A DNA stretch of 64,000 nt, from the NCBI GenBank assembly GCA_020002185.1, contig CM034544.1, positions 35,540,483 to 35,604,482 of the forward strand, in the 5' to 3' direction. Every line of letters starts with the position of its first letter. Within the stretch, counting starts at the first letter, position 1. The notes under the pieces are model-generated. The model saw only the letters and a list, made by a program, of their open reading frames with translations, ran no database searches and was not told the origin of the DNA. Positions 3,036-53,815 of this stretch are shown here, piece after piece. The DNA comes from Paraescarpia echinospica (Eukaryota; Annelida; Polychaeta; Sabellida; Siboglinidae). The position numbers and the translations under genes were made by a program.

Positions 3036-5765
3036 TAGTACAAATACAAATGTTGTGAACTTACCAATTTATACGTCATGTTTTCGGTGCTGTAGTACGA
3101 GAAAGGTATGTTACTGCAAAGCATGTTTACAACACATATCAGCGTGTGTTTATACAACCCTAAATATTTGTAGTTTTAAAACTACAATGCCAACATACTA
3201 AAACGCCAGAGATCAGTGGCGCATTAAAACCAGATTGATAGGTAATCTCCAAATTGATACAAAATATCAAAGTCAACATGGGCACAAATGTGCAATGAGG
3301 CTAAAGATGATCAGACAATTAAGCAGACAATTCTTCAGATAACGGCTTCATGATAATATAATGCCATTTGCGTACTTTTGTTATTTGTCTAACATAAGTA
3401 CCAAAAACGTATAAGATAATTCTTACGTAAAACATATTTACATTGTAAATTTAAATATCACAACAAATATTATATTATACGCCTAACAATTCATACATAG
3501 TATGTATTAGTAAACAAGCAATACATACGTGTTTAGAGATCCACTCCTTTAGTCTGATTTAATCGAACATGGCTACACTATTTAGGAAGACGACGCACAT
3601 GCGATCTCACTCAAGTAGATGAAATCAAGTATTTACAAACGGACGGAACGGCCGCAAGAATGTCAAGAGGGTCACGTATTGAATTTCGAGTTATTTCTAC
3701 TGTTAAAGCTTTAGGCGCAATTGACGTTGCCTTCTGAGATCCTCCATCTTATAAATACAAATCTCCAGTCACAGGAGAATCCAAGGGGAGCCTGGGGGCA
3801 CGTGTCCCCTACACTTTTTGCAATTTGGTGTGCCTCCTAGACCTTTTTTTAATGTGTCCCCGTTATGTGTTCCCTAGATATTTGGGATGTGCCCCCGTTC
3901 AATGAGGTGAGAAGAAGCTGGAGTTATGGCGGCGCGGCGGAAAGAAAATCTTTTAGCAGCACCCCCCATCTTCCGATGTCATAATCCATCAGCGAGACTG
4001 CGCGATAGCATGACAGCGGAATCGTGCTGAAGCTCTGGCTCAGACCACCGAATATGAATATGGTTCAGACGCCAGTGGAGGTTTCTTGGCGAGCATCAAG
4101 GGGTGCAGTTGGAGGGTGTTGCCTTCACCCAGATTATCTTCTCTGCATTCGCCTCTGCCAGTGAATCGACATGCTGCATACACTACATATATCACTTTCG
4201 ACATCATCAAAATTATTACACTTTTTATTTCACCTAATATTCAATATTAAGATAAAATGGCTCTAAAGACACGAACAAATATACCTGTGTGCCATATGTC
4301 TGTTATATTGCTCATCGGGTTTAGTATTTTGTGTTGTGAATAGACTAACTACCACGGGAAATCGGCTTAACGAAACAGTGTTTGAGCAAGCACACTATGT
4401 TCCATGTTGAAGATGCGAATTTATATTTTCCTTCTATTGTATGATGGCTAGGCCTATTGTGGTGTTGCGATCAAAATTACTGTGTACAGGAACAGTCATA
4501 TTTGCTAGGTCAAAATCCGCATATCTGATTAGAAATTGTGAATAAAATCGCATATACCAGTAAACAATACGAGTAGCCGTTATTGCAGCACCCTTATGCC
4601 GATCGACTGGCGCCATCTACTGGCGAAATAAACGTTTTGCCAATACCTCGGTACCATAAACCTTCATGGATGTGGGACAAATGTTGTCCAGCTATCTACG
4701 TACGAGTAAAATATTTTAATTAGGTAAGATATAACATACTTTTCATAGGTGATCGTAAATAGTGTGTTTTGTGCCATCGTGAACCAACGCTAAACAATAA
4801 ACAAATTGCACTATTTAAACGTCGACAACGTCTAAACAAAATGGTAAATATACTAAATTTGTTATTTAAAAAACTAGACCTACAACTGCGTAAAGAGAGT
4901 AGAGATATCGCAAGTTGAAAAACAACTTTCAAACAATATCGAAGGTTTTGGGGGGATTCGTCATTGCGACTCCCAATATCGCTCAATTAAATGCAGGAGA
5001 AATATAATCTATTTCTGCAATGTCAAAAATCGGAATTTGTGTCGCTCGTAAAATCGCGATGTTGATTTTCATTGTGAAACATTTCTCTTTCCAAAAACCT
5101 TATATTTAAAGTATCGTGGAACCACTTGCACTATCCACCGTGATGAAGGTGGTTGGTTGCTCTGAATCACAATATGACTCTCACGATAACAGATAATATA
5201 ATATATATTCACTTTAAACACTCAAAACAATTAATTTAACGGCAACAAAATACATTTATTATAGTGTGGGCTTATACGCCTAAAAGAGTTAATAAAATGT
5301 AACAATTTGCAACTACAATCAATAATATAATGCTTGTTGTTAACTCAAAATTAATTTTCGAAGTGGACTATTCTAGTGAAATCTGATAGTTCCCGACTGC
5401 TGACGAATTGAGACATGCCCCCGATGCTTGACCGATAAATGTCTGCAGCTACTCTGACCTTGACGCTGCAGTAATTTGTCGAATGCCCCGGTTTCCTCGA
5501 CATATATAAGAATATGTCAGCTCATACGTTGGTTTCGTGTATTCCCTTCAATTCAAAGTTACACTTGTAACAACTGTTAATATGTCTTACAGTGCGCCAT
5601 GCGAACGTAACACTTCAATTAGTTACAACGCCAAACAAATTCGGCGACGCTAACTAAAGTAATATTATCAGTTTGACAATTGGCTAATTGGGAAGAGAAG
5701 GCATTGGTGACATCAGAGTTCTATCACAATGGCGTTGCCCTTCAGTTTAAGTGATGTGTCTTCAA
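3036..5765. other. Unassigned AT-rich DNA
   Basis: I see no gene here. Open frames are short and lack splice context. The only recognisable piece is the C-rich dispersed repeat at 3780-4090, listed separately. A TATA-like string lies near 5505-5512 without any credible coding exon after it. Confidence 0.5.
3780..4090 (+). repeat. Dispersed C-rich repeat, copy 1
   Basis: The stretch around 3905-4080 (mixed-purine lead, then AGCAGCACCCCCCATCTTCC, then GTGCTGAAGCTC) matches 32480-32630 (AACAGCACCCCCGTCTTCC, GTGCTGAACCTC) in the same orientation with moderate divergence. The upstream part (GTGTGCCTCCTAGACC, TGTCCCCGTT) resembles the reverse complement of 43560-43650. It is therefore an old interspersed repeat family with no coding content I can recognise. 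Confidence 0.5.
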
Positions 5766-6074: not shown

Positions 6075-7650
6075 GGTATGTTATAATAATAATAATATAT
6101 TAAATTTTTTATAGCGCCAGATCCACAATTGTTCGTGGCGCTTTACAGTACATCATGCGGCATGATCATTAACCTAAAATATTAGTACTAACAGTCATTA
6201 AAACTAAAAATTGTGCCATACAATAGTAAAAAAATATTAATAAATAAATTAAGTAAAAGGCAACAAAATATTTGGAATATGGTAGTAAGACGATAACTTA
6301 AAATAAACGCGGTACAGTATAATATAATTAATAAATTACAATGTATAAGGTAATCACTAAAATATACCAGTATAAAATAAAATAAATAAATAAACAATTA
6401 TAAAATATTACTAATATAAATCTGTTCACTGGATCACCGGGGGAAGTCACAAACAAGCTACTAGCGTTCGTCTAGAATGATTGTATATGATTGAGTTGCA
6501 ATAGTCTAGCCGCGATGTTATTATGGCGTTGACTATGCGTTCCTTCGTTGTTTTAGGCAAAAATCAGCTGATCTGCATAATGTGGTGTAGGTGGAATACG
6601 CACACACTAACGGTTTGTGACACCTGTTTGCTCATGTGCAGGTGTCTGTCCACGTAGACGCCGAAATTCCGGACACATCGTGAAGCTGCAATCGTAGAGT
6701 CACCATCACGTATTACGCTGCCATCCACAAATGCAGCGGCCGACTTAGGCAGCACCGGAATGTATTCGGTCTTGCTGTCATTCCTGCACAATTCAGCGCC
6801 ATCCAATGTGTTATGTCATCCAGGCATGCTTCCATTCGACGTAAAACAGCAGCGTAAGCGGTTGTACTGAGATAAACGTGGAAGTAGAGTCGTAAGTCAT
6901 CAGCGTAGTGGTGGTAGCAAAGGCCATGTTTTCTGATGATATCGCCAATTGGTTGCACATACAACGAGAAGAGCAGTGGGCCTAGGACGGAGCCTTGCGG
7001 GGCACCTGATGTCAGAGGAGTTGTACCCGAAAATGTGTCACCAATTACGATGCGCTGTGTCCGTCCCTGCAGGTACGAGACCACCCAGTCTAATGCATTG
7101 TCAACAAAGCCGTAGCGCAATCGTAGTCGTCGAATTAAGATGGCATGGTTAATTGTTTCAAAAGCCGCACTAAAATCGATGAGAACCAGTGATGTGCCTT
7201 GTTTGTTGTCCATGGCTGATTTCATGACATTGGTAAAGTATAGTAAAGCAGTTTCCGTCGAATAGTATTTTCGATACGCCGATTGGTAGCTGTCATTCAT
7301 TCCCTGATTAGAGACGTGTGTGGATAGTCTAAGCGCCTCTTCTTTCTCAACTACTTTAGACAAATGTGTGAGATTACTCACTAGACGATAGTTATTCAAG
7401 ACGTCTTTGTTAAGCGATGGCTTCTTCAACAAAGGGCGGACAATAGCCTGCTTAAGCAGTATTGTCATGACCGCGTCTTCGAGAGATGCATTTGTGATTA
7501 GTGCTACAATGGAAACAAGACTGGGGGCATTGTCTTTCAGCTGGTTGGCATGTAGAGGATCTAGCACACAAGTTTTGTTCGTGATACCAAAAAGTGTTGT
7601 GATGTCTTCGGCTGTTGTAGGATGAAAGATATGTATAGGATCTGCGAAAC
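6075..7650 (-). mobile_element. CR1-superclade LINE (same family as 39243-42475), 5'-truncated
   Basis: The minus-strand RT frame (7567 to 6713, continued after a frameshift to 6564) shows NNYRLVSNLTHLSKVVE, IDFSAAFETINHAIL, GAPQGSVLGPLLFSLY, PIGDIIRKHGLCYHHYADD and CVRNFGVYVDRHL. These match, motif for motif, the element at 39243-42475. The catalytic YADD is kept. The 3' end (6170 to 6078 on the minus strand) reads GTAAAGCGCC...GGCGCTATAAA and ends in an ATT-rich tail, again as in the other copy. The copy lacks the endonuclease and the thumb/C-terminal region after VFHLHHI is mostly missing, so it has an internal deletion as well as 5' truncation. Further upstream frames (to 7650) are broken. 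Confidence 0.75.
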
Positions 7651-7654
7651 ATTA

Positions 7655-9200
7655 CTTTTCATCACACGTAGCCAGATCACTGAACGACTTTTACAGCAGA
7701 TTTGACAAGCTTAACTATTCACCAGAGCAGCGCCCACTTCCAGCAGGTACCACTCTGTCTCCGCTTTTATAGTCCAGGATTCTGATGTGAGGAAACTGTT
7801 CAGGAGACAGAGCACGCGGAAGGCCTCGGGTCCAGACAACAACTCCACATCTACCCTGATGAACTGCGCCGACCAACTCTCTGCGGTATTTACGGACATC
7901 TACAACTTCTCTCTCCAGCAGTGCAGAGTTCCAGTCTGCTTAAAAACTTCCACTATCATACCCATTCCCAAGAAGTCCAACATCACCGGACTGAACGACT
8001 ACCGTCCAGTGGCACTGACCTCAGTCGCCATGAAAGTGTTCGAGCGCATAGTACTCAAGTACCTGAAGTCGGCCACCGACGGCGTCCTGAACTCGCGCCA
8101 GTTTGCATATCAAGCAAACAGATCAGTAGACGATGCCGTAGCTTTAGGTCTGCATCACATTCTGAAGCACCTGGAAAGGCCAGGAACATATGCCAGGATC
8201 CTGTTCATTGACTTCAGCTCAACATGTATTGCCATCATCCCATTCAAGCTGTTCAATAAACTTTTATTGTTGAATGTACATCCTGCCAGATGTCACTGGG
8301 TCCTTAACTTTCTTCTTCACAGGCCTCAATCTGTCTGAGTCAACAACTCTATCTCCATACCTCTTATCCTATTTACAGGTGCCCCACAAGGTTGTGTGCT
8401 ATCCCTTTTCCTGTTTGCTATCTTAACAAATGACTGTGTCTCCGTGGACAAATCGGTCCTTGTGATCAAGTTTTCTGATGACACTACTGTGGAGGGCTGC
8501 ATTGAGAATGCGAATGAGACGCCATACAGGGAGGAAGTTCAGAGAATGGTCGGCTGGTGTGCGGATAACAATTTCGAATTTAACGTTTCAAAGACTAAAG
8601 AAATTATTGTTGATTTTCATAAAAAGAAGACTCCCATCCACCCTCTTTCGATAAATGGCGTGGAGGTCGAGCAGATTGAATCTTTTAGAATCCTTGGAAC
8701 AACAATTTCAAACGATCTCAGCTGGTGCACAAACACAATGTGCATTACAAAAAAGGCACAACAACGCCTGTTCTTCGTGAGGCAGCTCAGGAGATTCGGC
8801 ATTGTTCAGGAGATTATGATACGATTATACCGTGCAATCATTGTTGAAACTATCCTCACTTTCTCGAGTGTAGTGTGGTTTGGCCGCGCCAGTCAGGAGG
8901 AGAAACAACGGCTAGAAGTTATCGTGAAGGGCACATCTAGAATCATTGGTCGCGAGTTGCCATCCATTAAATCTATTTACTATGCTCGCTGTGCGCAAAA
9001 ATCCAAGAGCATTGTACGGGATACTACCCACCCAGCCAACCATCTCTTTGAACTTCTTCCCTCTGGCAAGCGCTATAGAAGTATTAAGACAAGGACCACT
9101 AGACGAAACAATAGTTTTTATCCGCAGGCTGTGAGTCACTTGAACCGCGAGATGCCATGATACTGTTTTCAGTCGGTTTAGATTGTATGTCGCCATGCTA
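7655..9200 (+). mobile_element. L2/Rex1-like LINE, RT region, broken
   Basis: Two + frames form one RT. 7787-8338 has [57 protein letters not shown] and [15 protein letters not shown]. After a stop near 8338 it continues as FTGAPQGCVLSLFLFAI, then VIKFSDDTTVEG (the YADD box as FSDD), SFRILGTTISNDLSWC, and an end TTHPANHLFELLPSGKRYRS. This is the L2/Rex1 branch of LINEs, distinct from the two other CR1-superclade families here. Endonuclease is missing and one stop interrupts the palm, so the copy is inactive. The stop at 9158-9160 is followed by AT-rich 3' UTR. A scrap of the same 3' coding end recurs at 59793-59895. Confidence 0.75.
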
Positions 9201-9464
9201 AATTATTTATTTACTATTTTTTTAGTTATGTATTAATTTATAATTTGTTTATGTTTTATTTATTAACTTGACTACATGTATGTACATACCTTTTAACTGT
9301 CAGCTTAGTTTTTATATCGTCAGCTAATTTATTTATTCATTTATTTATTATTTATTTACGTACATGTATACCTTTTGTTTTATTTTAGGTAATGATCAGA
9401 CGGTATTAATATTATTTTCATTTATGTCAATAGATGTACGACTGTCTTAAAATATGTTGGCAGT
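9201..9464. other. AT-rich stretch between two LINE copies
   Basis: A TTTATTTATTTA-rich stretch, probably the 3' UTR of the L2-like copy on its left. I see nothing else in it. Confidence 0.4.
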
Positions 9465-11645
9465 TTAAAAAGATTTAACAAGATTGCCTCCCAGAGAATT
9501 AACTCTAGGTGGCAGGTGGACAAGGAAGCCCTTTGGCTTATCGAGAGTCCGACCCTTTTATCTATGTGTATCCCGCCCGTCTGAGGTATATGTCGATTTT
9601 ATTTGTAAACATATTCACGCTACTAGCAGCCACACAATCAGCAGGTAATCTGTTCCATTCATTTACAATCCTTTTGTGAAAATGAAAACTTTCTTATATC
9701 CAATCTACTCTGCTCCTTTGCCAATGTAAGTTCATGTCCTCTAGTCCTTCTATCTTTCTTAACTGAGAAAAAAATATTTCTATCAATATTTTCATAACCC
9801 TTCAATATTTTAAACACTTCTATCTGATCTCCTCTCAATCTCCTGGTCTCTAGTGTTGTTAAACCGCATTTTTTTAGGCGTATTTCGTAACTAAGATCCC
9901 TCAGTTTTGGTATCATTTTAGTTGCTCTCCTCTGCACTCTTTCTAGCATATCTATGTCCTTCCTGCGATATGGCCTCCACGCTTGAATACAATATTCTAA
10001 ATGAGGCCTAACTATTGTTTTGTACAGCGGTATTATTAGTTCTTTTTCCTTATACGTTATGTTTCGCCTAATTAATCCAAGGATTTCATTTCCCTTTGAA
10101 GCTGCAATTCCGCACTGCTCTGAAACCTTCATGTCAGCACTAATTGTCAGCCCTAAGTCTTTTTCTTTTACAGTAGTATTTAGTACAGTTCCCCCCATTG
10201 TATATTCTACATATTCGTTCCCATGTCCTGTGTGAAGGCATTTACATTTCCCAAAATTGAACAACATTTGCCACTTTTCAGACCATTTTGATCAACCTGT
10301 CAAGATCATCTTGTAAATGCTGTCTATCTCCATCACTTTTAATCCTTCTAAACACTTTTGTATCATCTGCAAATTTCAACACCTTGCTTGTTATTTCATC
10401 ATGCAAATCGTTGATATATATTAAGAATAATATAGGACCTAATACTGATCCCTGTGGTACCCCACTCAATACCGATTTCCAGTTTGAAGCCTCCCCATCA
10501 ACTACTACACGTTGTCTTCTGTCAATCAGCCATTGTTCTATCCAGTTTATTATACCATTTCCTATGCCATGGGCCTTTAGTTTAAGCAGTAATCTTTGAT
10601 GTGGTACTTTGTTGAAAGCTTTTTGAAAATCTATGTAGACGATATCTACTGGTGATCCCTCATCTACCCACTTAGTGATGTCTTCCAAAAAACATAACAT
10701 ATTTGTTAAGCATGACCTCGATTTAAAAAAACCATGTTGAGATGGGTTTATCAAGTTTTGTTTAACAAGAAAATCCACCATGTGATCTTTAATTAGTCTT
10801 TCTAACAATTTACAAATCACTGATGTTAAACTCACTGGTCTATAGTTCTCTGACTTGTTTCTCGAACCTTTTTGAATAACGGTATAATGTTTGCTTCTTT
10901 CCATTCTAAAGGAACCACTCCCTCTTCTAATGACAAATTGAAAACTGTTGCAAGCGGTATGCTAATTTGTTCTACAATTTCCAATAGTAGTTTAGGTGGA
11001 ATACCATCCACTCCAGGTGATTTATTATCCTTCATAGCCCTTATTTTCTTACCTACCATTTCCGGGGTTACAATTAATTGTCCTAAATAGTCTGAATCTG
11101 CCCCCTTGAACTTAGCCTCTGGTACTGGCAGTGAACTAATATCTTCCCTGGTAAACACTGAACTAAAGTACTCATTCAGGTCTTCTGCCATTAAGAATCC
11201 TCTGATATTATATTTCCAGCACTATCTTCTAGAGGACCGACCTTATCTTGAACTTTCTGTTTGCTTCGAACATACGCATAAAAACTCTTGCTGTCATGTT
11301 TTATATTACTAGCTAATTGTTGTTCATAGCTTCTCTTTGAATTTCTAATTTCAGCTGTAGCTTGGTTAAGTGCTTCTTTATAACTATTGTAGTCTTCTTC
11401 ATTTCCAGTACATCTATATGACTTCCACATCATTTGTTTGTACTTAATTTTTCTAATGGCTTCTTTCGATAAGTGTTTCTTTTTGGACCGTTTTCCTTGT
11501 TTTTTGAAGGGTACAAATTTATCGACTATGCACTTAATTTCACTCTTTAATACATTCCAGCATTCTGTTGCCGTCTTATTTTTCAGTGTGTTATTCCAGT
11601 CTATCTTTGCTAAATATTTCCACATGTCCTTATACCTTCTGGGCC
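9465..11645 (-). mobile_element. CR1-like LINE copy, 5'-truncated and frameshifted
   Basis: Minus-strand frames in order: 11640-11191 (linker with MWKYLAKIDWNNTLKNKTA and SFYAYVRSKQKVQDKVGPLE), 11191-10832 (EYFSSVFTRED, NKSPGVDGIPPKLL), 10904-10278 (NYRPVSLTSVICKLLE, IDFQKAFNKVPHQRLLLKLK, LSGVPQGSVLGPILFLIYIN, LKFADDTKVF) and 10267-9659 (KDLGLTISADMKVSEQC, RPHLEYCIQAWRPYRRKDI, DMLERVQRRATKMIPKLRDL). The FADD catalytic box is intact. The element is split by at least two frameshifts (near 10870 and 10270) and one stop between linker and RT. The 3' UTR (9640-9480) ends in a repeated ATCTTGTTAA tail. Homology to the copy at 26245-29375 stops near 11640, so the endonuclease and ORF1 are missing. 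Confidence 0.8.
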
Positions 11646-22689: not shown

Positions 22690-23505
22690 GCAACAGTAAC
22701 ACTTCCTGGAATACTGCTTATAGATTTTAAGATTGACAAATCCTTTTGTTTTGATGCACCTCTGAGCTCTGTTTCCAAGGATTTAGGCGCAATAGAAGTT
22801 ATCTTATTATTACTATTATTATTAAACAAATAAACACATTCCACACGTCTGTCTTATATGTGTAGGCCGTTGTGTAGTATAATATTAAGTATTCGGTATC
22901 TCCGGAAATATGTACCGGATTTGTTATTATCGGCAGTAATAATTGACCTAACTTATAAATGTGTTATCAAACAACCGAACCGCCCCTGATGTTTAAAACA
23001 ATTGTCATTGTATGAACAAAACTAAACACACAATTAACGAAATTGTCCATCGTCCACTGTCAAAGTAGTTTGCTATGCAAACAATTCTTGAAATCATTGT
23101 CTATAACCATATATGTAAATATAAAATACACACACAGTAAGGTACGATAATAGTCCAACAAATTTGCTGTTTAAAATACAATGACGATATTATCCCCGAT
23201 GATAAGACTTGTGTTAGGTTTCTTCATGGATGATGGCCTTTATCAAGGAATTATAGTGCTGCTGACATGTTTTCGACGTGCTTGATATTAATCTATCATG
23301 GGAAATAAGTAAAAGTCAGAATTTATGACAAACCTTCAGTAACATTATTTAAAAAAAAAAAATGTTCAGGAAAAACTTATTCAAAAAATCCGGATACTTT
23401 TCAAAGTTTAGAAATATAAAGTTTTTTTTCATAGTTGTATTCATATAGTGAAAACTAATTGTCACCACCTCCGCGCGAGACAGAGGCAGGCAGATACACA
23501 CACAA
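22690..23505. other. Unassigned DNA
   Basis: No open frame with splice context, no repeat I can relate to others in the window. Confidence 0.4.
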
Positions 23506-23507
23506 AC

Positions 23508-23522
23508 ATATATATATATAAT

Positions 23523-23562
<40 letters not shown>
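23508..23562. repeat. (TA)n microsatellite
   Basis: TATATA runs interrupted once by ATTACA, immediately upstream of the RTE copy. Confidence 0.95.
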
Positions 23563-23563
<1 letters not shown>

Positions 23564-23569
23564 GGGCAG

Positions 23570-25380
23570 AGATTATACAGGACTATTTAATAACACGTAC
23601 ACTTCATGCGAAAAGATAGAACTATGTATGAGAAGGAACGATAGTCGTAGTATGTTCAAGGAAATCAAGTCTATGACACAGTCGTTCAAACGTAGACTTG
23701 GCATTATTAAAGATGAAACGGGGATGACTCTGACAGAAAGCAATGACATACTTGAAAGATGGAAGCAATATTGTGAAAGCATGTTTAAGAAAGAAGAAAC
23801 AGAAGAGGTAGACATGGATGAAAGCAGAGCGAGAACAGAACCAGTAGATGAACTTGAGCCTTTGTGTTCAGAGGTGGAATGGGCAATAAAAAGTCTAAAA
23901 GACGGAAAATCAACTGGCACTGATAACATCACTGCAGAGCTAATAAGAGCAAGTGGAGAAGCAGGCGTGGATATCTATCACACATTATGCAAGAAAATAT
24001 GGAGAAGTGGAACATGGCCCATGGACTGGAGACGAGCCATCCTTATACCAATACCGAAAAAAGGTGACATACAAGAGTGCTCAAACCACAGGACTATATC
24101 CCTCATCAGCCATGCGAGCAAAATGATGCTAAAAATAATAATGAAGAGAATCACAACAAAATTAGAATGTGAAGTCAACAGAACACAAGCTGGTTTCCGG
24201 ATTGGAAGAGGAACAAGAGATCACATTTTCAACCTGAAGATGTTAATTCAGAAATGTAGAGAATTCAACCATGACCTTAGGATATGTTTCATAGATTATT
24301 CAAAAGCTTTTGATAATGTTAGTCATCAACAACTCTGGAAAACCTTGATACGCATGGGATTTGACCAGAAAATTACATCACTTATCCAAATTTGTTATGT
24401 TGGACAGCAGTCTGCAGTGAGATTAGAGCGTGGTACCACAGATTGGTTCCCAGTCGGCAAGGGAGTGAGACAGGGGTGCACTTTGTCCCCCCACCTATTC
24501 AGTCTATACACAGAGAATATCATGAGAGAAGTCGAGACTGACACGAGAAGCAAGTTTGTTAATGGACTGAAAGTGAATGGACAGGAAATATATGAATTGA
24601 GATATGCCGATGACACAGCGTAAATATCCGATAAAAAAGAGGGATTGGATAAACTGATAACTACTGTTAAATAGCACAGCGAGATGAAAGGATTGAAAGT
24701 AAAACTGTAAAGAAGACTAAGATTATGGATGTGAAGGGATGTCGAGAACCATCAGAGGTCACAGTAGATGGCGAGGAAATAGAACGAGTGGAAAGTTTTG
24801 AATATCTGGGTCACTGATAGAAGCGGATGGAGATGGGATGAAAGGGATCAAGCGGAAGTTGGCAATGGCGAGTAAAAAGTTGACGGAGATGAAGAAGCTG
24901 TGGAAAGCAACGAACAAAGATATAAAACTACGAATTATCCGAGTCTGCATATTTCCAACGGCTACAAATGGATGCGAAACCTGGACTCTTAATTAGAACA
25001 TTACTAAACGTATAAATGCATTTGAAAACAAGTGTTATAGAAAGATATTACGAGTTTCGTGGACTGAACGCAGAACTAACGAATCCATCGCAGAAGAGAT
25101 TGGTGTTATACTCGGGACTTTATTGAACTTTGTAAATAAACAGAAACTAAGTTATTTCGGCCATGTGAAATGGCATCAGTCTCTAAAGAGACTAATAATG
25201 GAAGGAAACGTGGAAGGCAGAAGAAGCAGAGGAAGACCTAGGAAACAATGGGGGAAGGACATAGAGGAATGGATGGGAGCCGACGTCTGGCGAGTGGGGA
25301 GACTGGCAAACGAAAGAGCTGTCTATAGACAATCCGTCAAGGCTGCAACGTACGGAAATGGATAAGCAAAACCCAACCAA
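23570..25380 (+). mobile_element. RTE-type LINE copy with nearly complete RT
   Basis: A long + frame to 24623 encodes the RT fingers and palm: LKDGKSTGTDNITAELIRAS, ILIPIPKKGDIQECSNHRTI, RTQAGFRIGRGTRDHIFNLK, FIDYSKAFDNVSHQQLWKTL, VGKGVRQGCTLSPHLFSLYT and LRYADDTA. A TAA at 24621 follows the YADD box directly. After it, broken frames continue (EVTVDGEEIERVESFEYLG, NGCETWTLN, CYRKILRVSWTERRTNE) and end with 25123-25365 containing LSYFGHVKWHQSL and GRRSRGRPRKQWGKDIEEW, the usual RTE C-terminus. The endonuclease is missing and the 5' edge abuts the (TA)n tract. It is a different subfamily from the RTE copy at 1-1545. Confidence 0.8.
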
Positions 25381-39242: not shown

Positions 39243-42200
39243 AGGAATGTCCAAACACGCTGCCATGCATATGTCCACCCGGCGGGAATACATTGGCGTT
39301 TTGACATTTTTCTCGTGATCGACCACAACATTGACATCTTAGCCATAACGGAGGAAACGTGGCTGAAAAAGAACAGCGACAAACCGATTATCGCGGAACT
39401 GACGCCGAACGGATATACGTTCATCAATTTTCCTCGTGCGGCTGGACGCATTGGTGGTGTCGGCGTCATCCACAGGAACACGTTACCGTGCAAGATGCTC
39501 CCTAAAACGAACTATGAATCTTTCGAACTGATGCGTATCCAATTTACTGGAGCCACATCTAGAACGTTCAACCTGTGTATGCTCTACCGCCCGCCACCAT
39601 CGGCTAAGACTCCCAGGCCGATGGTGGAGTTCTACCTGGAACTAAAACACCTGTTCCGAGAGATGTCGACATGCATAACACCAACGTGCGTTGTTGGAGA
39701 CTTCAACATCAGATACGACGTTGAGGCAGAGGCCTGGCCGCTCGTGCAACTACTGGACTCATACAATTTCACTCAACACGTCACAGAGCCTACACATTCT
39801 GCAGGCCACACATTGTATTTTGTGATAACCCAAAACAATTACAATCTCGCTACTTCTGTTGACGTTATTCCGATGTCTATATCAGATCACCACGTAGTGC
39901 GCTACGTCATGAACATCCAAAGGCCAGCTAAGACATCGACACATATAGTAAAACGCAATTACCGCTCGTTTGATGCCGATTTTTTCAACAATGACATTCG
40001 ATAAACTTGCGAGTTACTATCAGCCATGGTGTCAACATCCAGCGTAGCGGAACTGGTCACTGGCTACAATTCTTCACTAAGAACAGGTTATCGACAAACA
40101 TGCACCAGAGCGATGGACTGCCATGCGGGGTAATATGCCTTACCTGTGGTACAACAGCAACATCGATGACGCGAGGAGACGACGGCGAAAGAACGAGTCA
40201 TTGTGGAGACGCACAAAGCTTGAGATCCTTCGACAAATGTACGTTGATGCACGCGATGAGTGCAACAAGCTCATTGCCCTCTCGAAAACCAACTACTATC
40301 GAGATAAACTTCTGAACGCTGACAACAAAAGTATGTTCAACTAAGTGTGAAGCCATCACGTTCGTATCCCGAATAAGACTCCGTCGTTGCCTGTTGCGAT
40401 TTATTTTCAGACTATTTCAACAACAATGTAGCTAAAATTCGACTCGGGTTACATGCTGTCAGACATCGCAAGACACCGCCGCGTGAAACACGTCGCTTTG
40501 TCACACCAATTGACACATTTACACCTACAGCAACACGTGAAATAACGGGTATCATCGCTAGAATGTGTACGTCTTGCACACTTGATCCGTTACCATCCGA
40601 TCATGTAAAACAGAACACTGACGCACTTGCGATCATTGTTGCCGATATAACAAAAGCGTCTTTAGCAGAAGGAACAATGCCGGGTGAACTAAAGCGAGAA
40701 ATTGTGCATCCTCTTCTGAAGAAGCCGTCACTGTGTCAGAATACCTTAAGTAACTACCGCCCAGTTAGCAATATGTCCCAACTATCGAAAGTGATTGACA
40801 AGATTGTGGGCAACACATTGAACATTCACCTAGCCAAGGATTCACTTAAGGACACATTTCAGTCCGCATACAAGCGAAACCACTCGACCGAGATAGCCCT
40901 ACTGTGGGTAGTCAACGAGATCAGGACTGCGCTAGACCGTAAACAAGGTACAATCGTCGTACTCATCGATCTAAGCGCCGCATTTGACACGGTAGATCAC
41001 GCAATACTACTGGATCGCCTACAACGACGCTACGGCATCACCGGAGTGGTTCTCCATTTGTTGGAATCTTACCTAAGTAATCGCAAGCAGAGTGTCGTCA
41101 TCGACCGCGTGTTATCCAGCGAGACGACTTTGTTAACGGGGGTGCCGCAAGGGTCAGTGTTGGGACCACTATTATTTTCGCTATATGTGCAGCCGATCGG
41201 TGATATCATTCACAAACACGACTTAAGATATCACCACTACGCCGATGATCTACAACTGTTCTGTCATTTCGACTTGGATGCATCTTCTCTGGTGACTGCC
41301 GTGCGTCGGAACGACCGATGTATTCATGACGTGAAGGAGTGGAATTATCTGCTCATGGATGACACGACAAAAGAAATTCTACCGGTTGTCCCCAAATCAG
41401 CTTCTGCCATTGTAAGTGGGCCCCGTGTGCGCGTCGGGACAAACGAAATCTGTGCAACTGAACATGTTAGAAATATCGGCGTCCACCTTGATAGACACCT
41501 GGATATGACAATGCAAGTCTCACGTACTATCAGCACTTGCTCGCTGCACCTGCGCAACATCGGGTTGATTCACCGTTACCTCACTCAACCGACAGCGGAA
41601 CGCGTAGTCAATGCTATGATTACATCCCGTTTGGACTACTGCAACTCTCTACTGTTCGGTACCTCAACCAATAACATCAGCCGATTGCAGCGACTCCAGA
41701 ATGCTGCCGCTCGCCTTATTACTCGACAGGCTCGTTGTGAAAGTGCGACCCCTATTCTTCACGAACTGCACTGGCAACCTAGTCAACAGCGCATTACATT
41801 CAAGATCGCTGTTCTTACGTACAAGTCGCTGCACGGAGACCTCTCGCCTGTCTACATGCATAAACTCGTGCGTGTCTACATGCCAGCCAGACGTCTTCAG
41901 TCTGGTGACTCGAACGCACTAGTTGTCCCGAGAACTCGCAGCAGAGCCGGTGACTGTACATTTGCTCACGCAGTGGCAGCAGTGTGGAACGCTCTGCCGT
42001 CATGTGTTACAAGCAAAACATCACTGGAATCATTTAAATCTGTCTTGAAGACTAACCTGTACACTTCAGCGTATATGTAACTCTGACCCTAACCGACACT
42101 GTTTTACCATAGCTGATTGATGTTTAACGTTTATTTATTATTTATTGATCTATTTATTTACTTTTCGTATACATTTTAGCCTAATTTATTGATGTTTACA

Positions 42201-49312: not shown

Positions 49313-49445
49313 TCGGGCTACAATGTCGCCGGTATGCCAAGGAAATTTTGCCCTCGCCGATGCGGCGGCGTCTTTTACAAGATCTCATTTTATTTGTTGT
49401 TCGCATAGTTAGCAAACAATGTGTATGTTTTTGAGAAGTGTTCGA

Positions 49446-50031
49446 TGAAACATATAGGCCATGGGCCATATATGCCCCTCGTGCACCCCCACAACTCTAC
49501 CAACCCATGTTTTTTTAAAGCTTTGGGGTCCCTTGAAGATGATTGCAAGTGGTAACAGTGAAAAAGTTGGGTCTCACTACCCATTTCCAACCTATCTTGG
49601 ATGGTACCCTGAAATATCGTATTTGTTGTTAATGTCGCATGGTCTTTAATCACCCACACCACAATCATCATTGTATAATCATATATGTCTCAATATGTAC
49701 TTATGATATGTCGAGTTGAAGGGTTTCATCAGCTGATCATAATAATAGCATTCATTGGATATTTGCTATTATGGCCTGTGCCGTAATTAGCATAGAATAA
49801 CTATACCCTATTCTCACTCGTGACCGCATAGATGACATTATTATGTTTGTCAAATATACAAATTTCCGTTGATCCCATCGCCTCTTTAAGATCAAAATAA
49901 TAATAACGCATAACACTCTGCAGCATCATATCTTTCATTTGATACCAGAATTGTCTTTCTGTCATTACAAATGGATTATATATGATGCTTCAAAGATAAC
50001 CGTAGTGTCCCGGATCAAGAGGCGTAACGCA
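49446..50031 (+). repeat. Left terminal inverted repeat
   Basis: Starts near ATATAGGCCATGGGCC and ends at CGGATCAAGAGGCGTAAC. It is mirrored at 53226-53795. It includes a 62-codon frame (49461-49649) whose sequence is matched by the frame on the opposite strand in the right repeat (MGxICPSCTPTTLPTHVF, YPFPTYLGWYPEISYL). Confidence 0.85.
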
Positions 50032-50439
50032 AAGATAACCATGGATATGGATGACATACATGTCAAAACTGTCTAGATTATGTGTGTGTTTTCCAGTATA
50101 CAGTTACACCAGATTAATTCCAGATGCATAAAACAAAGCACTACATATTTCATATAATGTGCATGTATATTAGCTTAATATGGTATCCAAAACTCGTGAA
50201 TTAAGATGTGACAAAAGTCAACAGTTCAGACAAATTGAAAGCCAATATCTCACAATATGATCATTCAGTGTAAAGCGAATTACTTACGTATGACATGCAT
50301 TTAGATGGTAGACATTGATAAAACAAAATGTAGTTAGATGCCAAAAAGTTATACACATCTTAATTGTATGCAATGACATTCGATATCTAGGTTGATGTAC
50401 GGATACTTCCAAACATTGACAGCTACATAACCAATTATA

Positions 50440-52836
50440 TTAGTCACATTTTGATGGTCGGTCATAATCACTGTCATTGTCAACATATAGTTCCATCCCA
50501 TCAGACATGTCCATGTCAGACTCGTCATCACTATCAGTGTGGTCGGGGTCTACCTGAGCTATATCAGCCAGTCCACGTGGCAGCACACCTCCATCGTACC
50601 ATAGTGGCTCAATGCTTCCATTACTGATGTTGCAGCCTTGGTTTCTGCTCACTTTGGAGACGTCCGGCTCAGGTATGTGTGCTTTCTTCCATATGCCAAC
50701 TTGATTGTTGACTCTTCTGTCATGCTGGGTGAGACTGCGCTTGCATGATGGTGGATTGGCCATGTCAATATTACCTGAAGGAATAACACGGTTATCCTTG
50801 GTACACAACTCATTGATACGAATTAGCATGAAGTCATCAACTTTTGACACCTTTGATGCTCTACCGTACACAGCACAAGTGAATCTGTCCAGATAATCAA
50901 TCCTTTCTTCAGGTACGTCCCAAGTATCCCCTAGTTTCTTCAGTACACGAATGCATTGATGAATCTTCAGTAGAGTTTTCACTGGTTTGCCAATCCCTCG
51001 GAAAGCACTAGTGCTGTCACATCCACTGAAAGCATGCAGAACCATCAGAGCCATACATTTGTCTAGGCCGACATCAAATGCTAGTTTGCTGACAACAATC
51101 AATCTTTGCTTATTTCCTAAACCAGTGCCAAACAAGATGATGATGTCTCCAATTGATGCAGCATAGTGCAGAAGAACGAAGAAGATGTGTGAATCTCGCG
51201 TAATTAACATAGAGGACAACTCTTGAGTTAGTTTCCTCCTGTGACGTCAGAAGGGGCAGTTCATGGATTACTGTTGCCCGGCCATCATTGGAAGTCAGCA
51301 GAGAGGCATTTTCCTCACATATGAAGATAACTTGTCTTCTTTGCGGTTTTGATGCGTATCCATCACTCTGCCACAGCTTCAGAAGCAGTTTGATGATCTG
51401 ACACTTGTTTTCACCATTGAACAATAATGAATTCCAATCGGATGGCCTCTTGGTTGCCTTTCCTTTCAGGATCATCTTCTCTCCCGTGTGGCCGACACCT
51501 TCAGGTTCAGCGATCTCTCCTTTTCCTTGTTTGAGATGGTATCTCAGGACAGTCACCAGATTCTGCAGAATGATCATCCCTGCCAACTTCCTGTAACAGG
51601 ATGCCATGAGCCTTGTGAACTGATCGTATCCTTTTCCTGTGAGATCATTCAGAAGCTGTTCGAAATTATCAAATTCTGAATGGAATACCGTTGGTCCTGG
51701 TGGTGACCTGACAATCTGGTTGGAGAGAAGAATGGACGACTGCATAACAACTTCAGCTAGCGCTGTCTCCAGCTCTAACGAAAAGGAGTAGCTTTTACAG
51801 TGTCCCATTCTATTCAGAAGAGTTACGAGTTTTTCACTTCTGAACAAATAACGGATGAACATGCTCAAGAAGAGGTGCTTCAGCAAACACATCCTGGATA
51901 GTCTGTCGAAGAGATGTATAAGTGGTCTTGATAACATCAGTTGATCACAACTGGAAGGCATGTTTCACGGCTGTGTTGATGTTAACCTTTGACTCATAGA
52001 CTATGCTTGACTGGAACTTTCCCATATTGTAGAAGGGCAGTTGGCCATTGAAGGGTTCATAGCTTTCAAGTTTGAGTTTTAATTTCTCACTCCGATAGTC
52101 AGGATTACTGTGCTCTGTATTCTCTATGCTGGATATGTACACTTACAGGTCAGCCAATTTCACCATCTTCCGATCATGCAGGACATCCTTCTCCACCATG
52201 CAATAGACTATGTCAAATGTCTTTTCATGGGCTTCCGTTAAGTTGAACACGCCATTTCTCTGGTTTTTGCATATATTTCATGCGTGCGGCAATTCTTGTG
52301 GAACTTGGCTTCACAAGCAAACGGATCAAAACCTCGTATTTTTGTGAGGAGCTTCTCATCCTGTTTTATTTCTGTCATCGTCGCCACAGTCTTCCATCCA
52401 TCAAATTCAAACTGACTCATGCCTTGACTGGTCCATTCGCCTTTCACTTTTACCTTCTTACGACCCTCTGGTCCACAGAACATACAGTCCGACATGAAGA
52501 ACGTCGTGGTGTGGAGGCATCAGATGGTTGTGATGAGGTGAACTTCAGCCTGTCCATATTCATGGTGAAACTTTTGTAGCATTCCCAAAGGAAGCCAAGA
52601 TATTCCATCACTGTGTTGGGGGTGAGCTTGCACGTCGTGTCCTCTATCCTGAGGGTTAAAGTTGGATGTTCTGAACGTCTCTTCTCTTTGATCTCCTGCA
52701 ATTTTGCCAACTTCTCTGCATGCCGCATGCCAGACATGAGTTGAAATTCTCCATATTTTAAACCCTTTACATGAACTATACAAGTAGGCTCGGCAGTTTG
52801 ATCACTTGTTCGTTTTCGTTTTAATGGTAAATACAT
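50440..52836 (-). pseudogene. FEN/XPG-nuclease-like transposon protein, frameshifted
   Basis: Minus-strand order: 52836-52450 (basic start, then CTVCSVDQRVV); 52495-52238 (Zn-type MSDCMFCGPEGRKK ... FACEAKFHKNCRTHE, the CxFC...EAKxHxxC module of the family); 52142-51945; 51961-51110 (FEQLLNDLTGKGYDQFTRLM, WNSLLFNGENKCQIIKLLL, LLTSQEETNSRVVLYVNYA); and 51219-50440. The last frame has TRDSHIFFVLLHYA, LHAFSGCDSTSAFRGIGKPV, TCAVYGRASKVSKVDDFML and an acidic tail. SQEE(T/A)D, (S)DSD and GCD-x(6)-GIGK line up with the EAE, DxD and GCDYCxxIxGIG motifs of FEN1/XPG, which bind metal and DNA. A deletion with frameshift near 51190 removes the strand between the first two motifs, and other frameshifts lie near 52480 and 52150. 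A transposase role is inferred from the TIRs. Confidence 0.65.
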
Positions 52837-52969
52837 ACAAAGGTAGGTATGTAATATCAGCAGGTCAAATTGGGGTAAGTAACAAAGCTTATCATTTATC
52901 GTTATCTAACTTAAATAAAAAATTTGCTTATCGATATCTGTGAAGTCGACCTGAGGCATGTATAAAAGC

Positions 52970-53045
52970 TGCAATTGAGATTTAAATAATATAATATGAG
53001 ACTTAGGTAATATAATATGAGATTTAAATAATATAACATGGGATA
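52970..53045. repeat. Short tandem repeat (~27 bp, 3 copies)
   Basis: GAGATTTAAATAATATAATA-like words are repeated three times (GAGATTTAAATAAT, GAGACTTAGGTAAT, GAGATTTAAATAAT), just inside the right inverted repeat. Confidence 0.75.
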
Positions 53046-53225
53046 CAACCTTGTGATCCCCACATACCATAATGTAAGAATACTAGTATTCCAGCTGCAA
53101 ACATGTTTCTAGATTCTGCAGAAAGAACTTAAATGACTTATAAAAAACAATATTATAGTCACTTCTTCATTACATTTTAAACAATCCATTGCTGATGAAG
53201 TGTGTAATCATTAAAAATGCCATGA

Positions 53226-53795
53226 GTTACGCCTCTTGATCCGCGACACTAGGGTTATTTTTGAAGCATCATATCTAATCCATTTGTAATGACGGAAAGA
53301 CAATTCTGGTATCAAATGAAAGACATGATGCTGCAGAGTGATATGCATTATTATTTTGATCTTAAAGAGGCCATGGGTCAAAGAAAATGTATATATTTGA
53401 CAAAAATAATAATGTCATATATGCGGTCACGAGTGAGTATACGTTATAGTTATTCTGTACTAACTAGGGCACAGGCTATAATAGTAAATATCCATTGAAT
53501 GCGATTATAATGATCAGCAGATGAAACCCTTCAATTTGACATATCACAAGTACATATTGAGACACATATGACTATACATTGACAATTGTGGTGTGGGTGA
53601 TTAAATACCCATTGACGACAAATAGGATATTTCAGGGTACCATCCAAGGTAGGTTGGAAATGGGTAGTGCGACCAAACTTTTTTACTGCTACCATTTGAA
53701 TTCATCTTCAAGGGACACCGAAGCGTAGAAAAAACATGGGTTGGTAGAGTTGTGGGGGTGCACGAGGGGCATATCTGGCCCATGGCCTATATTTT
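53226..53795 (-). repeat. Right terminal inverted repeat
   Basis: Reverse-complement partner of 49446-50031. It contains on the minus strand the frame 53783-53601 equivalent to the left-repeat frame. Confidence 0.85.
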
Positions 53796-53815
53796 CAACC
53801 CTTTTGGACAACTTT

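Follow-up and report, generated by a model that had tools for sequence, protein, structure and literature searches.

An internally deleted long-inverted-repeat DNA transposon of Paraescarpia echinospica, probably of the AcademX lineage, with a nuclease-bearing protein in its relatives

Why should a DNA transposon with long terminal inverted repeats (TIRs) carry a gene that recalls a FEN/XPG-type nuclease and apparently lacks a transposase? The question is raised by a 64,000-nucleotide stretch of the annelid Paraescarpia echinospica (contig CM034544.1, positions 35,540,483 to 35,604,482; hereafter the window), which contains such an element at 49455..53789 on the minus strand. A sequence-only reading had described it as a long-TIR transposon that encodes a FEN/XPG-nuclease-like protein "rather than an obvious DDE transposase". 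The present analysis indicates, with a probability of about 0.82, that the element is a decayed, non-autonomous and internally deleted copy of a DNA transposon with long TIRs, which most likely belongs to the AcademX lineage, and that the full protein combines a probable transposase core with a nuclease.

The genome searched (1.08 Gb, 3,111 contigs) contains many copies of the TIR. Of the 441 first-look candidates from the search, the 40 that were scored match at 91-100%. There are 108 occurrences genome-wide (52 + 56) of the exact 36-bp end and 0 of its reversed control; in plasmids, nothing close to the TIR was found. The outer ends were read in 26 of the 30 loci L001-L030 (the other four lack the search word), and TAGGCCATGG begins 24 of these 26 ends, with altered letters in L011 and L030 and variable letters outside. 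The C-terminal piece of the protein has 147 matches in the genome (1,993 candidates, 143 scored), many with stops. Among 30 loci found through the protein (L031-L060, the window included) a TIR lies near the 3' end of the gene in 28, the misses being L042 and L058, and therefore the ends and the gene travel together. Recurrence of the TIR ends with the gene as a unit elsewhere had been chosen beforehand as the point on which the transposon claim could fail; it was found in these 28 loci, beside the 108 exact ends. The proposal that the "GCDTTS"-type orphan protein is transposon-borne thus holds for the Paraescarpia echinospica genome. Another derivative, at G000:C8:44509697-44512141, is shorter: it measures 2,445 bp and has perfect ends and a CAT/CAT duplication.

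The ends of the window copy were set through the TAGGCCATGGGCC terminus of other copies, which gives an element of 4,335 bp. The left TIR (49455..50031, plus strand) lies 3' of the 3' end of the gene and the right TIR (53223..53789, minus strand) upstream of it. The two pair in four blocks: 49449-49634 with 53610-53795 (90% complementary), 49641-49875 with 53375-53609 (88%), 49874-49904 with 53347-53377 (97%) and 49899-50031 with 53223-53355 (93%). The inverted repeats of about 570 bp that had been said to frame a minus-strand gene are therefore real; their proposed outer limits did not stand, as other copies place the ends slightly further in, at 49455 and 53789. The TIRs are identical at 513 of 568 ungapped positions and differ at 55 (Jukes-Cantor distance 0.104), so the insertion is not recent. 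The distance between the TIRs of a longer copy, L061, is 0.058.

With the ends taken as TAGGCC...GGCCTA, identical 3-bp flanks border 15 of 18 elements, or 16 of 19 when the longer copy L093 is added; when the left flank of one element is paired with the right flank of another (18 non-identical elements), the rate of 3-bp identity is 7.5%. The 19 elements are the 15 convergent pairs of less than 5 kb (every such pair noticed by eye among 100 listed of the 108 exact-end places), together with the window copy, the C12 element (L002/L029), the C5 element (L010/L003) and L093. L061, whose right end lacks an exact GGCCTA, and L092, whose second end is rearranged, were excluded from the count. The misses are the C5 element, the C9 element L082/L083 and the window copy, where the left flank ATA (49452..49454) has no 3-bp match to TAT at 53790-53792, only TA being common. 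No element has matching flanks of at least 4 bp, and the count at 9 or 10 bp is 0 of 18. Within each of the couples L066/L068 and L088/L090 the 20 flanking bases shown on either side are identical, and these are probably duplicated loci; with each couple counted once, the 3-bp duplication is present in 14 of 17. Neighbouring elements with identical 20-base flanks on both sides occur at G000:C1:46639170-46652818 and C14:53006750-53133375, which suggests that the locus was duplicated together with the element. No empty site was found for the C5 element: among 40 scored of 385 candidates, its joined flanks matched its own two flanks, and the remaining listed rows were partial copies of a left-flank repeat. 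TIRs, many copies and 3-bp duplications together bear out a family of long-TIR DNA transposons.

The apparent lack of a transposase is explained by comparison with longer copies. Set against a 6,822-bp stretch of L061, the window copy matches to 2615 and resumes at 4755, and 2040-2227 is also missing. At the larger of these deletions, of about 2.1 kb, an identical join was found in 21 of 21 loci compared, two bases longer in L048; the window copy (L031) is one of these loci, and L002/L029 are a single element. Among L031-L060, some of which resemble duplicates of one another, the shared junction is present in 16, the sequence runs through in ten (the L061 locus included), two have other deletions and two could not be assigned. 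A search with the deleted stretch yielded 46 first-look candidates and one with the TIR 441, a rough comparison between different queries. A deletion common to many dispersed copies suggests that this shortened form has itself been moved, by analogy with non-autonomous derivatives of other transposons.

The missing part, about 665 extra residues, is present in the longer copies L061 (about 6.8 kb, both TIRs), L093 (6,582 bp, both TIRs, TAA duplication) and L092 (one end rearranged), which places the longer form at about 6.6-6.8 kb. In pieces, these copies cover residues 15-1546 (L061), 15-1400 (L092) and 64-1559 (L093) of the related protein P0139, and all three carry stops or frame changes. 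In each, about 160-230 bp between pieces near residues 572-580 remain unmatched, in a manner consistent with one intron. In C1, the longer element has a truncated second copy of the gene upstream of it (L061:2-801), and a piece of about 43 bp is repeated 12 times at a spacing of about 67 bp just upstream of a full-type copy, as an array near the presumed intron (G000:C11:49924300-49925074). The longer copies keep a middle domain with the order D...D...GxFH...D/E, which is also conserved in relatives. The window copy, as a deletion derivative, appears transposase-less because the internal deletion removed this domain, the probable transposase core, and the contrast with DDE transposons first drawn from it is not supported.

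What is left of the gene in the window copy (50440..52905, minus strand, as are all its parts) has a broken frame; on one reading, stops or changes of frame number six from 52905 to 50440. The N-terminal module 1 (CIVH ... WECYKSF, 52579..52782, frame 2) has Leu in place of the first His of the HxxC of relatives, and is followed by the zinc-type module 2 (CMFC ... FHKNC, 52289..52486, frame 1). A second deletion junction of about 187 bp (51876..51881; 2040|2227 of the L061 element) is absent from the other spanning loci. The junction of the shared 2.1-kb deletion (51483..51490) marks the loss of the middle domain and of the nuclease's first half. Subsequently come SQEETNSR (51221..51244; QEETDSR in relatives), by order the counterpart of FEN1 E158/E160, then DSH (51187..51195; DSD in relatives), the counterpart of D179/D181 with the second Asp lost, and GCDSTSAFRGIGK (50986..51024), corresponding to the D233 region. 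Of the motifs first listed, CMFC...FHKNC, SQEE and GCDSTSAFRGIGK are thus present, and the supposed DSD reads DSH. Activity of this nuclease remnant is very unlikely, because it has lost the equivalents of P0139 D1165 and D1202 to deletion and carries H in place of the second Asp of DxD. A Pfam scan of the six protein pieces of the window gave nothing useful.

Relatives of the protein carry source-given names from hagfish, fish, sea spider, brittle star, sea urchin, crab, prawn, bivalves, gastropods and sea anemones, among the best 120 of 179 and the best 120 of 155 matches, most of which are nameless. Those named are mostly "uncharacterized" or "hypothetical" proteins, and several are molluscan. 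Many relatives form one frame of 1,530-1,630 amino acids. An alignment of 41 long relatives (1,416-1,629 amino acids; P0017 and others picked by length from the list) was read in P0139 numbering. In module 1, C30 is kept in 39 relatives, H33 in 38, H95 in 40 and C98 in 41; in module 2, C138, C141, H200 and C203 are kept in 40 of 41, the remaining one having a gap. The two N-terminal Cys/His modules probably bind DNA. Scans with two or three peptide patterns gave no relative in bacterial and archaeal genomes, one per species (117 pattern stretches, none confirmed), or in viral contigs (53, none confirmed). P0150 and P0237 are named as proteins of Candidatus Thiodiazotropha metagenome-assembled genomes (MAGs), yet they encode the animal transposon protein and are probably host DNA inside the MAGs. 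P0017 has a C-terminal Tesmin/TSO1 CXC match just below the cut-off, and extra domains occur in P0147 (PF00567) and P0228 (PF13359); fusions or annotation joins are possible in all three.

In the middle domain, D405, E454, D489, D661, H690 and E744 are present in all 41 relatives; D911 and E915 are present in 40, the other relative having a gap. The order of acidic residues is DDE-like, and the domain is the probable cut-and-join core of the element, putatively an RNase-H-fold transposase. Foldseek with the middle-domain model gave no significant match. The best transposase match, not significant and the sole transposase among the structural rows, was to the hAT transposase Hermes, which the domain resembles in its D...D...H...E order and in a long helical stretch ahead of the E. 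A profile of A1, mainly the N-terminal and middle parts, found nothing among PDB sequences, and no transposase domain is among the 22 Pfam families that a scan of 30 members at E 1 listed. Pfam DUF6589 (PF20231) matches weakly and locally at about P0139 681-873, in eight of the 30 members at E 1 (best E 3.4e-5; the one score shown, for member 1, is 17.5 bits, the cut-off being 27); a literature search found no paper naming DUF6589. The C/DxxH motif of the hAT/Kolobok/MuDR/P/Dada group, as defined in passages of PMC10045372, is absent between the second D and the E, where GxFH stands instead, with G687 and H690 invariant in the 41 relatives.

The C-terminal domain is more readily placed. Structure prediction, the check proposed for an intact relative, gave a confident FEN/XPG fold for this domain of P0001, by the model and by its structural matches. 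Among predicted viral proteins, its top matches include viral XRN and FEN1 proteins and also herpesvirus proteins, Allo54 for example (Foldseek E 2.7e-6). D1165, D1202, K1210, R1214, R1217, E1303, E1304, D1306, D1330, D1332 and D1389 are present in 41 of 41 relatives, and seven of them (D1165, D1202, E1304, D1306, D1330, D1332 and D1389) are, by motif order, the metal-binding acids. The FEN-type acids expected from the window are thus in place in relatives; the window copy lacks two and has one D changed to H. The nuclease of relatives is, from model and alignment, of FEN1/Exo1/XPG type with an apparently complete active site. It differs from the Exonuclease 1/FEN1/XPG/XRN superfamily in sequence (about 10-13% identity in structural alignments), has Asp where FEN1 has E160, and is part of a transposon protein.

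In the most likely mechanism, the N-terminal modules would bind the TIRs and the middle domain would cut and join DNA with a 3-bp stagger; of this scheme, the 3-bp outcome and the existence of the domains are what the data show. The nuclease may process 5' ends or flaps in excision, integration or gap repair, and full-length copies may move the deletion class in trans. A bolder version, which we regard as doubtful, makes the fused FEN/Exo1-type nuclease an essential catalytic partner that trims transposase-made 5' ends or flaps and so sets the 3-bp duplication, against 9-10 bp in AcademH; in its extreme form the nuclease replaces the DDE domain as the cutter.

That the nuclease itself makes the transposition cuts, with the middle domain serving in DNA binding or structure, is a reading to which we give very little credence. 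The complete active-site conservation and confident fold speak for it, set against the unproven fold of the middle domain. On the other hand, a fixed 3-bp duplication is expected of staggered DDE strand transfer, and no flap nuclease is known to leave one. The conserved D, D, H, D/E order occurs in DDE transposases that have a helical insertion, and Hermes, weak as the match is, is the only transposase retrieved by structure. An unlikely but less remote explanation is a separate, unnamed superfamily with a transposase core of another type, resembling AcademX only through a recruited FEN/XPG-type nuclease and 3-bp duplications. The Pfam result, with DUF6589 as its only weak signal, and the lack of a significant Foldseek match agree with it. 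Against it, the TIRs, the 3-bp duplications and the presence of a nuclease accord with AcademX as given in passages of PMC10045372, and passages of PMC10294476 report Academ as expanded in bivalves, several named relatives here being molluscan. A host multigene family with incidental flanking inverted repeats, or chance repeats, has next to no probability. The uninformative names of the few named relatives would suit a host gene, but the sharing of ends by 108 exact copies, with differing flanks and 3-bp duplications, and the many stops among the 147 C-terminal matches, would not; the copies and duplications led to its rejection.

A protein family ranging from sea anemones to fish, whose named members are mostly recorded as "uncharacterized" or "hypothetical", thereby gains an identity, its C-terminus is recognized as a FEN/Exo1-type nuclease from the model and complete conservation, and the apparent absence of a transposase in copies is explained. 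It also raises a testable question: why a transposon group keeps a flap nuclease, and whether this nuclease sets the duplication length.

The surroundings of the element include simple repeats and reverse transcriptase and endonuclease remnants of LINE (long interspersed nuclear element) type. RVT_1 was found by Pfam in five of the ten open reading frames scanned, and remnants with RVT_1 and Exo_endo_phos lie at window positions 6716-10961, 23412-24620 and 39243-42077.

The nuclease of AcademX elements is of XPG type. The family described here is AcademX-like and a probable member of the AcademX lineage of the Academ superfamily; the sequence-only suggestion of Academ/AcademX is favoured by the 3-bp duplications, the likeness being one of traits. 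The shared traits are TIRs common to many copies, the 3-bp duplication (the window copy being an exception), an XPG/FEN-type nuclease in relatives, reduced to a remnant in the window copy, and large size, curated bivalve Academ elements having a mean of 5,565 bp in passages of PMC10294476. A literature search found no paper pairing Academ and XPG as whole words, and passages of PMC9587614 and PMC10799480 served as background only. According to passages of PMC10045372, AcademX and AcademH belong to one superfamily, in which AcademX has a nuclease beside the transposase and duplications of 3 or 4 bp, whereas AcademH has a helicase and duplications of 9 or 10 bp; the same source ties the difference in length to the encoded enzymes. 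The present elements differ from AcademH in their 3-bp duplications; no helicase is among the Pfam families listed for the 30 relatives at E 1. Possible differences from AcademX are TIRs of about 570 bp and, in relatives, a nuclease fused into one protein of about 1,530-1,630 amino acids.
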